Virus record (IMG/VR): IMGVR_UViG_3300020370_000003
Coordinates: 1 to 64,000 of that record
Source of the DNA: a virus
Strand: one strand, 5' to 3'
Length of the DNA: 64,000 bases
Shown piece after piece: positions 78 through 3,440 of the stretch. The position numbers and the translations under genes are program-made. Numbering within the stretch: the stretch's first letter is position 1; each line of letters begins with the position of its first letter. The notes beneath the pieces were generated by a model. It was given only the letters and a program-made list of their open reading frames with translations, did not search any database and was not told the origin of the DNA.

Positions 78-635
78 CTACCTTTTGTCTCTGCTTCCCT
101 GATTCCTTACTTCAAATACTGTATAGTTGAAAGTTGCTGTAGCAGTCATGAATTCATTATCAGTTCCTGTAACATCGAAAGCTACAGTGGACAATGATAC
201 TGGCCAAAGACTTTGAAATACAACATCAAAGTTTGTAACATTATTATTATTTAAAACCAATAACGTTGCATCAGACCACTTAGCATCATCAGTGTTAGAT
301 CTAGTATCCATTCTATATTGGTCATTCCAATTCATTCTATCAATATAATCTTGAGGAGTTCCTAATGCTCGTATCCAATTATGAATCTCCATATAATTTC
401 TAAGGTCTTCATCAACAATGAAATCCAAAGTCAATTGACTATACTCTATATTACCACTCATAGGGATCTTAGCATATCCAGCAGTAGGAATATCAACTTG
501 CCCTAAACTCATTTCTGGTATTGATGCTCTTTGGCATAGAAAAGAAACCTTCTTTGCTTTATCCAATACGAATACAAATCCTATTGGTGATAGAAAGTTC
601 TTGTTTGTTAATTGATCTTTATACCAGTTTGCCAT
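78..635 (-). CDS. Tail-tube-like (gp19-fold) virion protein
   Basis: This 185-aa protein probably belongs to the myovirus tail tube/baseplate tube family. Seen: a soluble beta-rich sequence with an N-terminal stretch FLSPIGFVFVLDKAKKVSF, then a segment rich in P and G (DIPTAGYAKIPMSGNIEY), then LTLDFIVDEDLRNYMEIHNW. That order (a strand reporting on the ligand, an amidated loop, then a W-containing helix) resembles the T4 gp19 fold. The canonical tube gene gp19 is elsewhere (7304-7900), so this may be a tube-initiator or cap relative such as a gp48/gp54 counterpart. The start ATG lies 20 bases after a TATAAATA element, so it probably has its own late transcript. It follows the Ycf35 gene and precedes the gene that starts at the left edge. 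The exact T4 equivalent is uncertain. Confidence 0.6.
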   Translation of the reverse strand: MANWYKDQLTNKNFLSPIGFVFVLDKAKKVSFLCQRASIPEMSLGQVDIPTAGYAKIPMSGNIEYSQLTLDFIVDEDLRNYMEIHNWIRALGTPQDYIDRMNWNDQYRMDTRSNTDDAKWSDATLLVLNNNNVTNFDVVFQSLWPVSLSTVAFDVTGTDNEFMTATATFNYTVFEVRNQGSRDKR

Positions 636-655
636 TATAGCAGTACTATTTTAAT

Positions 656-663
656 TATTTATA
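656..663 (-). promoter_or_regulatory. T4-type late promoter TATAAATA (fused to ycf35 stop)
   Basis: A perfect TATAAATA on the minus strand ends 21 bases before the ATG of the tail-tube-like gene. The TAA inside the element (659-661) is also the stop codon of the upstream ycf35 gene. T4 late promoters consist of this -10 element alone, which fits the absence of a -35 box. Confidence 0.75.
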
Positions 664-1042
664 CCCACCGATTAACAACTAGTTCAACAGCATTACTTGA
701 ATTAACCTTCTGACTTTCCACTTCAAATCCATTAGACTTAGCAACACTGGTAAGTAGTTGTATACAATACAACTGTGTTATCTTTTCAAGGAATCTTTCT
801 ATTGGTATTTGATGAGACCAAGTTTGTCTATCGGTTATCAACTCATAGCATTGAGACTGTTTGTTCCATACGAAACCCATATCATCACCTACAGTTACTT
901 CACACATTACTCTCTCGTGCTCATGTCCTATAGGATTTACTAACTGTCTATTAATATCAACTGGATAACCATCAAACATCAATGCTTGTATTAATGCTGG
1001 TTTGTTTGTGATCTTCGTTTTGATTTTGCTGAAGTGTGACAT
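659..1042 (-). CDS. ycf35: Ycf35 / DUF1257 family protein
   Basis: This 127-aa protein resembles Ycf35 (DUF1257), a protein of cyanobacteria and plastids whose function is not established. Diagnostic stretches are the N-terminal MSHFSKIKTKI, LVNPIGHEHERV, GDDMGFVWNKQSQCYELITD, the QTW motif followed by PIERFLEKITQLY, and the C-terminal VELVVNRW. I chose the ATG at 1042 because the family begins MSHFSKIKT; an upstream in-frame ATG at 1078 adds 12 residues that do not look conserved. It overlaps the end of the DUF2997-like gene by about 71 bases in another frame. This is probably a host-derived auxiliary gene and is the best evidence in the window for a cyanobacterial host. The identification comes from recalled family motifs. 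Confidence 0.8.
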   Translation of the reverse strand: MSHFSKIKTKITNKPALIQALMFDGYPVDINRQLVNPIGHEHERVMCEVTVGDDMGFVWNKQSQCYELITDRQTWSHQIPIERFLEKITQLYCIQLLTSVAKSNGFEVESQKVNSSNAVELVVNRWV

Positions 1043-1208
1043 TGTAGTATTCTGGTTTGTATTCTCTAGAGATAACATTAACGTTATTTAGAGCTTTCTC
1101 AAATGGTAGTGTAACATCTAAACACTGATTTGACTCTACTCCTTGTACCTCTTCTATAACTGTACCATCCTGTTGGATGATGAATTTAATTTTTTGTTGT
1201 GTGGGCAT
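972..1208 (-). CDS. DUF2997-like small protein paired with Ycf35
   Basis: This 78-aa protein matches the short DUF2997 pattern: a strand KIKFIIQQDGTVIEEVQGV, a conserved Cys in NQCLDVTLPFEKALN, then a K-P-E-Y-Y end near residue 54. DUF2997 genes often sit beside ycf35 in cyanobacteria, and here the two are adjacent and overlapping. The start shares a base with the stop of the preceding gene (TAATG at 1210-1206), which suggests translational coupling. The last 24 residues are polar and lie over the beginning of ycf35 in a different frame, so the tail may be a by-product of the overlap. Function is unknown. It probably acts with Ycf35. Confidence 0.7.
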   Translation of the reverse strand: MPTQQKIKFIIQQDGTVIEEVQGVESNQCLDVTLPFEKALNNVNVISREYKPEYYNVTLQQNQNEDHKQTSINTSIDV

Positions 1209-1498
1209 TAGTAATGATCCTCTAGTCCTTCTACTGGTTTAACTTCCCAGTCCTTACCATAGTATTTTTCTAACATATTATGATGTGGAGCACGGTCAAG
1301 TTGCTCTTGCGTGAATGTAATCTTCTTAGGTGGTGGAGGTGGAAACATCTCTAGTTGTATCTCAGGTATAGAAAAGGTGTCACCATCTTTTCTATGGTGT
1401 TGCCAATAGAATGTACCGTTTGGTTTTTTGTATAAATGGTCTGCATCGTGTGAACTAATCAAAACCATCTTAACTATCTTGTCGCCTTTCTCAATCAT
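1208..1498 (-). CDS. Small hypothetical protein with polyproline run
   Basis: This protein of about 96 aa has no family I recognise. It contains HHRKDGDTF, a PPPPP run after EIQLEMF, and an acidic C-terminus. The ATG at 1498 shares one base with the TAA stop of the upstream 62-aa gene (TAATG), matching the junction style of its neighbours. An in-frame ATG at 1513 would add five residues and a 16-base overlap. It lies in a co-directional run of small genes ahead of the DUF2997/ycf35 pair. The compact spacing and overlapping stop/start suggest it is real. Confidence 0.6.
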   Translation of the reverse strand: MIEKGDKIVKMVLISSHDADHLYKKPNGTFYWQHHRKDGDTFSIPEIQLEMFPPPPPKKITFTQEQLDRAPHHNMLEKYYGKDWEVKPVEGLEDHY

Positions 1499-1706: not shown

Positions 1707-1714
1707 TATTTATT
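1707..1714 (-). promoter_or_regulatory. Late-promoter-like AATAAATA
   Basis: AATAAATA on the minus strand lies 21 bases upstream of the 62-aa gene and touches the stop codon of the 88-aa gene. It has one mismatch to TATAAATA and is embedded in an AT-rich stretch, so the call is moderate. Confidence 0.45.
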
Positions 1715-1994: not shown

Positions 1995-2023
1995 AAAAAA
2001 AGAGACCCCTCTGGGGTCTCTTT
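1995..2023 (-). terminator. Rho-independent terminator after gp23
   Basis: An 11-bp perfect stem (1999-2009 with 2013-2023) with a three-base loop is followed on the minus strand by a run of T. The stem contains GAGACCCC and its complement. It begins 20 bases after the gp23 stop codon and should end the major capsid transcript. Confidence 0.9.
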
Positions 2024-2042: not shown

Positions 2043-3440
2043 TTACATGAGGTTTGCAACTTGTACACGTCTGTAATACTTGTTAGTATTAGCTGTAAGA
2101 GCACCAGATCCCTGAGTAAGTCCCTGTGAGAATGGGTTTGAAACCATGCCGTAACGAGTCTTGAATCCAATTTTTGGTTGGAAGGTGTCAGGATTTATTG
2201 CTCTGACCTGCTGTAGAGGTACATATGGGCAATAGAATAATCCAGCATCATAAGGAGAAGTTCCTTTGTATCCAGCAACGTAGAAGTGCTTGTCACTTAC
2301 GTTAGCAGAATAAGGGTCAACATAAACCTTTATGCGTCCGTTAAGAGTACCAACAAGTGTGCTTGCAGTATCATCAACACCAGTAAGAGCATTGTTGCCG
2401 TTAAGAGCAGGTGTGTAATCTAGAACACCAGCCATTCCAAGAGCAGAAGCCACATCAGCAGAGCAGATGAGGATGTTGCCCTTCCCACGACGAGTTTGCT
2501 GTCCGATAGCGTTAGCATCTCTTTCTATCTGGAAGAGTAGTCCTTTGAACTTCTCAACTGACCATCTACCGTTGGAGTCAACGTCAAGGTCAAAGATACC
2601 AGCATCAGCAGTATTGTTCTGAGCACCTTCTACTGCGTTAACGTAGATTGTACGAACAACTTCTCTGTTGATTTCAGCAAGGATTTCTGTTGAGAGAATG
2701 TTGGACAACTCTTGCTCGGCATCAAGACCATGAATTGCTTTCAAGTCTTGAGCAAGCTCGATGCTGTACTCAGCTTTCAACGCACGAGATTTCGCTGTAA
2801 CAGTTACTTTCTCTATGCTGAATCCCATCTCACGGAACGCTGTATTAGCAGCACCGTCATCTAAAGCTTCAGCAGTGGTTGTTGCCATTCCAGTAGCATC
2901 ACCAGTCTGCTCGTAAGTTCCAGGAGAACTATCGTTAAGAACAGCAGGGTTGTTACCTTGAGCGTCGTTAGTTGCGTCTGAAGCGTTGGGGTCGTAGTTA
3001 GAAAGACCTGTTCCAGCACCACCAGAGAAACCAGCGTTAGGCTCATTGAAGAATGCTTCACGGAAGTCAGATGAAGCAGGGCTTCTCTCACTACCATAGG
3101 CAGTTCTCATTGCGAAGATAAGTCCAGTAGGACCAGTCATTGGTTGTACACCAGCAATGTCATAAGCAATTAGCTTAGGCATTGAACGACGTATCAATGA
3201 TATAAGTACGGGGTCGAAACCAGCAACAGGACCAGTTGCAGTTGCATCTGCACCATATCCACCTGTTCCAACAGTTTGTAAAGTCTCGTTAAGGATTTGT
3301 CCTTCTTCGACTTGTGCTTTTTCTTGGTTCTCTAGAAGTTGTGCGACTACACCTTTTTTATAGGAATCTTCGATCTCTGGAAGAGCGTCGTGATTCAATA
3401 CAGGGGCCCACTTCTCCTGGAGTTGTTTAATGTTAGCCAT
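2043..3440 (-). CDS. gp23: Major capsid protein gp23
   Basis: This protein of about 465 aa forms the hexameric capsid lattice of T4-like phages; T4 gp23 has 521 aa. Family features are an N-terminal helical propeptide (IKQLQEKWAPVLNH), the segment RRSMPKLIAYDIAGVQPM, GPTGLIFAMRTAYG, and the C-terminal half with FYCPYVPLQQVRAINPDTF and PKIGFKTRYGMVSNPFSQG. T4 prohead protease cuts after (I/L)-x-E. The sequence ILNE followed by TLQTVGTGGYG near residue 52 is a good candidate maturation site. I use the ATG at 3440; the longer reading from 3449 starts with TTG, and that TTGGAG acts as part of the ribosome-binding site. It follows scaffold gp22, and a strong terminator follows. No TATAAATA is obvious in its short leader. 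Confidence 0.97.
   Translation of the reverse strand: MANIKQLQEKWAPVLNHDALPEIEDSYKKGVVAQLLENQEKAQVEEGQILNETLQTVGTGGYGADATATGPVAGFDPVLISLIRRSMPKLIAYDIAGVQPMTGPTGLIFAMRTAYGSERSPASSDFREAFFNEPNAGFSGGAGTGLSNYDPNASDATNDAQGNNPAVLNDSSPGTYEQTGDATGMATTTAEALDDGAANTAFREMGFSIEKVTVTAKSRALKAEYSIELAQDLKAIHGLDAEQELSNILSTEILAEINREVVRTIYVNAVEGAQNNTADAGIFDLDVDSNGRWSVEKFKGLLFQIERDANAIGQQTRRGKGNILICSADVASALGMAGVLDYTPALNGNNALTGVDDTASTLVGTLNGRIKVYVDPYSANVSDKHFYVAGYKGTSPYDAGLFYCPYVPLQQVRAINPDTFQPKIGFKTRYGMVSNPFSQGLTQGSGALTANTNKYYRRVQVANLM

Follow-up and report, generated by a model that had tools for sequence, protein, structure and literature searches.

The closest described relative of this locus is cluster g of cyanobacteria, with the gene order duf2997 - ycf35 - fed7 (PMC4284462); the host cluster also holds a HEAT-repeat gene, giving HEAT protein - DUF2997 - ycf35 - Fed7 ferredoxin. 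In Synechocystis, Fed7 has a protective role under oxidative, metal and iron stress (PMC4284462). In cyanophages, direct orthologues of the pair studied here are P-SSM7_222/223 and P-SSM2_178/179 (cyanophage T4-GC 174 / 175; phrog_23133 / phrog_20456), annotated as hypothetical proteins only, and a literature search found no paper that names ycf35/DUF1257 in cyanophages. Coupled pairs with a TAATG or ATGA junction resemble the phage pair in being adjacent same-strand genes that likely act together. Termination-reinitiation operates at stop-start spacings near -8 to +10 nt (PMC12548453, PMC10666635), and translational coupling weakens as the overlap grows, with none at -25 nt in the reviewed experiments (PMC12548453). 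Long overlaps in the phase of DUF2997/ycf35 are the common kind in bacteria (PMC10666635), and terminal overlap through stop-codon loss has been set apart from de novo overprinting (PMC2268670).

The stretch of DNA that we analysed (the window, 64,000 nt) is part of an 81-kb IMG/VR record related to Prochlorococcus phage P-SSM7 (gp23 88% identity). On its minus strand, gp23 is followed by a run of small genes that closes with DUF2997 and ycf35, and then by gp3 (Table 1). An earlier sequence-only reading had recognized the cyanobacterial pair and its order, and both hold up: DUF2997 lies immediately upstream of ycf35 on the same strand, as in cluster g (PMC4284462).

Table 1 Positions of genes, overlap and signals around the DUF2997-ycf35 pair in the window
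Feature	Positions	Strand	Evidence or remark
gp3 (tail completion), downstream neighbour	78..635	(-)	63% identical to P-SSM7 gp3
TATAAATA, putative late -10 motif for gp3	656..663	(-)	Spans last codon and stop of ycf35
Ycf35 / DUF1257 protein, 127 aa	659..1042	(-)	Start ATG at 1042 (MSHF); Pfam PF06868 6.3e-17; phrog_20456
Out-of-frame overlap, 71 nt	972..1042	(-)	Length 71 nt in the clade of the window; other phages 29-83 nt
DUF2997 protein, 78 aa	972..1208	(-)	Pfam PF11211 1.1e-13; phrog_23133
Putatively selected part of overlap, DUF2997 tail VTLQQNQN over Ycf35 codons 1-9	1017..1040	(-)	Codon skew; tail consensus
Small ORF upstream, 101 aa	1208..1513	(-)	TAATG junction (1 nt) with DUF2997; phrog_14292
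Shine-Dalgarno-like GAGGA of DUF2997	1218..1222	(-)	Duplex -5.8 kcal/mol
Small ORF upstream, 62 aa	1498..1686	(-)	16-nt overlap with next ORF; first gene after late-promoter motif; phrog_5190
AATAAATA, cyanophage late -10 motif (NATAAATA)	1707..1714	(-)	Upstream of the gene run closing with the pair
Strong intrinsic terminator	1999..2023	(-)	After gp23
gp23 major capsid protein, upstream neighbour	2043..3440	(-)	Pfam Gp23 2e-148; 88% to P-SSM7 gp23

The phage pair and its host counterpart

The DUF2997 protein matches the PF11211 profile over residues 7-55 with 51.2 bits (gathering cut-off 24.1), and Ycf35 matches the DUF1257 profile PF06868 with 62.1 bits (gathering cut-off 22.2); PF06868 profile positions 1-27 are unaligned in the window protein, the MSHF start is invariant in A2, and the Ycf35 proteins of phage homologues begin in the same way. 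Both open reading frames, and the exact 71 nt that they share out of frame, are as the sequence-only reading gave them. The Ycf35 frame is +1 relative to that of DUF2997, and the overlap starts at DUF2997 residue 56, with all residues after the Pfam domain encoded within ycf35. The shared segment makes up 71 of the 384 nt of ycf35, about 18% or a sixth of the gene, and not the first third that had been proposed. The P-SSM7 pair has a 71-nt overlap, as in the window, and the P-SSM2 pair one of 35 nt; these pairs sit before psbA or gp43, as opposed to the gp23-gp3 interval of the window.

In AlphaFold2 models, the DUF2997 tail (residues 56-78), beyond a core of approximately residues 1-55, has a pLDDT of about 43-51, a very low confidence of the kind expected for disorder, and the tail is thus predicted to be disordered. 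The model of Ycf35 is of good quality (pLDDT 89). Ycf35 has no PDB relative by sequence and none by fold (best E 0.1), and its model has one BFVD relative, A0A7S5REL3; the DUF2997 model is too weak for structure search.

The phage pair differs from cluster g in lacking Fed7 and the HEAT-repeat gene, in its 71-nt overlap and in its different DUF2997 tail. The position downstream of ycf35 that the fed7-type 4Fe-4S ferredoxin holds in cluster g is taken in the window by gp3. A Fed7-like ORF was found in 112 cyanobacterial loci and in no phage locus, so that neither Fed7 nor any other ferredoxin is a constant partner in phages. It is a reasonable guess that the phage pair modulates the Fed7-type redox system of the host. 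The uncharacterised cyanobacterial DUF2997/Ycf35 pair becomes an auxiliary unit of phages that can be tracked in hundreds of marine viral contigs.

Distribution and origin of the overlap

Relatives were recovered by profile search in 571 viral contigs; 215 distinct phage loci were compared, 207 of them scorable for the junction. The sequence-only reading had asked whether the overlap is conserved in related phages, and it is: 167 of the 207 scorable loci overlap, by 29-83 nt and in one single phase. The lengths are 56 nt (45 loci), 47 nt (31), 35 nt (25), 71 nt (20), 41 nt (18), 29 nt (18), 38 nt (7), 80 nt (2) and 83 nt (1). The non-overlapping phages (n=37) have junctions of 1 nt (32 loci) or 0 nt (5 loci), and in 3 phage loci the genes are 490-534 nt apart; in none of the scorable phage loci does the DUF2997 stop lie 2-28 nt into ycf35. 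On the host side, 72 of 78 scorable host-scan loci, mostly Prochlorococcus, have a 14-nt overlap, these 72 being of the high-light type, and the remaining loci have a 0-1 nt overlap or none. Other cyanobacteria in our sample show gaps of 20-201 nt and no overlap. Cluster g of high-light Prochlorococcus already carries an overlap, with the same frame relation as in phages.

Phage Ycf35 proteins form a single clade beside those of high-light Prochlorococcus (SH-aLRT 99 and 88), so that one single acquisition of the pair by phages is likely, with the sister relation of phage and high-light host supported by 88 only and both branches long. Overlap status switches approximately 10 times within the phage tree. 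Homologues in which DUF2997 ends before ycf35, which the sequence-only reading would have taken as the mark of a recent mutation, do exist, yet the overlap is ancient in phages: conservation across phages and the tree rule out a recent mutation. The comparisons indicate that the overlap is old, not a recent accident, and that the double reading has probably been kept by selection.

At codons 4-5 of Ycf35, all 72 hosts with the 14-nt overlap carry TTT AGY, a TAG stop when read in the DUF2997 frame; codon 4 is TTC in every overlapping phage scored at MSHF. This TTT/TTC difference at Phe4 leaves the Ycf35 protein unchanged and eliminates the DUF2997 TAG stop; we infer that the change ran from TTT to TTC. 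In the scenario that we propose, a two-gene unit was taken once from a Prochlorococcus-like host, phages having retained only DUF2997 and ycf35 of the host cluster. The start state would have been a DUF2997 TAG 14 nt inside ycf35, as in the high-light host; the synonymous change at Phe4, or an equivalent history, would have abolished this stop, and DUF2997 would then have extended to the next in-frame stop, 29-83 nt inside ycf35. Through a single synonymous change, a downstream gene can in this way lengthen the upstream protein by a tail. Terminal overlaps through stop-codon loss (PMC2268670) likewise carry an upstream gene, out of frame, into its downstream neighbour; unlike them, the phage extension is partly conserved, lies on a host-derived gene and is variable in length with its first tail residues kept. 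The kind of overlap is already known; in the literature searched, this particular tail and the two-state junction set out below appear to be undescribed.

Codon choice, the DUF2997 tail and ycf35 initiation

Monte Carlo synonymous recodings of the window's Ycf35 protein, drawn with window codon usage, put the first stop in the frame of DUF2997 at a median of 17 nt for the window class (17-29 nt across all classes), and only 0.3-0.9% of recodings stay open for 71 nt. With the following within-gene codon control, this rules out a chance open frame. We compared 158 distinct overlapping phages with the rest of the same gene and with non-overlapping phages. His3 is CAC in 153/158 overlapping phages vs 90/470 in the rest of the gene, and Phe4 is TTC in 158/158 vs 118/500. 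Ser5 is AGC in 120 and AGT in 8, vs 17 and 138, respectively, in the rest of the gene; Ile7 is ATC in 110, ATA in 33 and ATT in 0, vs 51% ATT. AGC thus accounts for 94% at Ser5, as against 3% of the window's Ser codons and 11% of AGY elsewhere in the ycf35 genes. Non-overlapping phages reverse the skew at two of these codons (AGT in 23/23 AGY at Ser5; ATA 29, ATT 5 and ATC 2 at Ile7), and at His3 and Phe4 it is weaker but present (CAC 27/36, TTC 26/36), so that ancestry or start-region constraints contribute there. Near-identical Ycf35 N-termini with and without the overlap, differing accordingly in codon choice, provide a natural comparison.

The DUF2997 tail consensus is V-T/S-L-Q/H-Q/H-N/D-Q/K-N/D. 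The skew is also found where a T would create no stop, at Ser5 before T6 (AGC 84, AGT 8) and Phe4 before T5 (TTC 30, TTT 0), which suggests that the tail amino acids are selected, rather than openness alone. Any such constraint is confined to the beginning of the overlap: dual-frame constraint is found for Ycf35 codons 3-7 only, with none clear in the distal overlap, and the tail past approximately residue 10 drifts, its length fixed by the next stop in frame. Synonymous variation is clearly reduced at Ycf35 codons 2-5 only, and for the 71-nt class alone the reduction is not significant (p = 0.2), kinship inflating the p-values of the selection tests, which comprise 1-3 independent tree contrasts. 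Because these contrasts are so few and relatedness is not fully corrected, we go no further than to call selection on the overlap probable and, somewhat less firmly, selection at the peptide level, on the short tail V-T-L-Q-(Q/H)-(N/D)-Q, fairly likely.

The best explanation, in which we place moderate confidence, joins single acquisition and stop loss to protein-level selection of the tail motif. Selection would have maintained the first 7-8 new residues, a short motif at the disordered C-terminus that may bind a partner, perhaps Ycf35, and the distal tail would drift. Ycf35 would most likely initiate by itself from an unstructured AUG without Shine-Dalgarno sequence, and not by termination-reinitiation.

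The window ycf35 start has no Shine-Dalgarno (0.2 kcal/mol). The core of this signal occurs before ycf35 in 0/106 distinct upstreams of overlapping phages (median 0.0 kcal/mol) and in 16/26 upstreams of 0/1-nt phages (median -5.7 kcal/mol; p = 3e-13). Overlapping ycf35 starts also have little structure (-2.35 vs -5.79 kcal/mol), which suits Shine-Dalgarno-independent initiation. Most non-overlapping phages share a conserved DUF2997 C-terminus, HDSEGC, whose DNA (GATTCRGARGGNTGYTAATG) carries the ycf35 Shine-Dalgarno (L046-L049, L051, L178, L185, L257-L282, L381, L391 and L397) and which in 0/1-nt phages is usually followed by the TAATG junction. These phages do well with such other tails, so the VTLQ-type motif is not essential. 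We tentatively suggest that a functional V-T-L-Q-[QH]-[ND]-Q motif came from second-frame ycf35 codons and that several lineages exchanged it for HDSEGC together with a ycf35 ribosome-binding site. If true, the VTLQ-type overlap and the HDSEGC tail are two alternative solutions to one gene junction, and the named motif and the junction switch make this directly testable.

The gap in phage stop positions at 2-28 nt could also mean that the position of the stop is selected and not the peptide: a stop 14-23 nt in would park ribosomes on a start that lacks a Shine-Dalgarno, and phages would therefore keep DUF2997 stops at least 29 nt inside ycf35. The weakly structured, signal-free starts of overlapping ycf35 genes and the unconstrained distal tail fit this account. 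We nevertheless consider it unlikely, given the skew at Ser5 before T6 and Phe4 before T5, where there is no stop risk, and the 14 nt tolerated by high-light hosts. Moreover, in the three loci with ycf35 490-534 nt off (L030, L033 and L041), DUF2997 keeps the tail VTLQQNQDQD, encoded by a duplicated ycf35 piece.

We hold it very doubtful that the overlap couples Ycf35 translation to that of DUF2997, as the sequence-only reading proposed. The Shine-Dalgarno core, absent from ycf35 in all overlapping phages, is present for DUF2997 in the window, the two genes travel together, and the missing signal still allows a dependence of ycf35 on DUF2997 ribosomes. However, the window's stop-start spacing of -71 nt lies outside the termination-reinitiation range, and such reinitiation falls with overlap and is already absent at -25 nt (PMC12548453); RNA folding at the ycf35 start (-1.2 kcal/mol, -30..+40) leaves little to unfold. 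Unlike TAATG / ATGA coupled pairs, the window pair has this long overlap and a second gene without Shine-Dalgarno, and the textbook architecture of TAATG plus Shine-Dalgarno sits on the non-overlapping phages; classical translational coupling is probably absent from the overlapping pair. Equally improbable is a neutral by-product, in which the frame stayed open through C-ending codons inherited from the host, with no selection on the tail: the freely variable distal tail, the commonness of long overlaps of this phase in bacteria (PMC10666635) and the approximately 8 overlaps of at least 50 nt in the P-SSM7 annotation (by our reading of its tables) agree with it, but the excess of AGC at Ser5 over both backgrounds and the reversal at Ser5 and Ile7 in non-overlapping phages do not.

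Genome sites, putative promoters and split pairs

The cyanophage late -10 motif NATAAATA has been described previously (PMC2984593). In the window it lies upstream of the pair in the same putative operon, and this motif and the terminator after gp23 support a late-type context for the window pair. The sequence-only reading saw in the late structural region a hint of a role in late infection; the motif and terminator agree with this here, but a late region is atypical of the pair. In other phages it lies before psbA, gp43, gp25 or gp17; between regA and hsp20, nrdB and NAD synthetase, or gp14 and gp15; and next to DNA-replication genes. With so many genome sites, the location of the pair cannot be taken as a sign that it generally acts late.

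A comparison of ycf35 3' ends (L013-L040) suggests that the end of ycf35, its final codon and stop, doubles as a piece of the putative promoter of the following gene. Every gp3-adjacent relative in the clade of the window has TATAAATA; in gp3-adjacent relatives, WV-stop corresponds to GTATAAATA, a putative late -10 for gp3, and in psbA-adjacent relatives, W[TSI]-stop falls within TTGACR-17-TATAAT, of the sigma-70 type, before psbA. Across the 64 kb, the late-motif form WATAAATA has 9 matches, all on the gene strand and 8 of them at late-gene junctions, and the expectation from shuffled sequence is approximately 16 over both strands.

The gp23-gp3 interval is a cargo site (L015, L016, L020, L021, L023 and L040), holding purM-like and tRNA-ligase-like genes or the DUF2997-ycf35 pair in IMG/VR relatives, and tRNAs and a tRNA ligase in P-SSM7. 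The 62-aa protein of the window's gene run ends in CPDCWDPDSTCIIH and has a weak likeness, below cut-off, to Pfam Phage_zn_bind_4. A giant ORF at 39641-63883 (-), of more than 8,000 aa and with an open frame that continues beyond the window to 64270, is the orthologue of the P-SSM7 7,124-aa virion structural protein (68% over a 4,104-residue alignment).

The overlap had also been expected to lock the two genes together. The 37 loci with 0/1-nt junctions and the intervening gene in L030, L033 and L041 contradict this, and the split pairs rule out the overlap as a tether against separation. The gene between DUF2997 and ycf35 belongs to phrog_274, labelled DNA endonuclease V (L030 4510-5000, L033 4466-5000, L041 4510-5000); it has no Pfam match, and its HxD..H pattern is more like that of a 2OG-Fe(II) oxygenase. 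Its insertion goes with a duplication of the first 11 ycf35 codons, and in L033 the phrog_274 frame has no stop from the original ycf35 ATG onwards.
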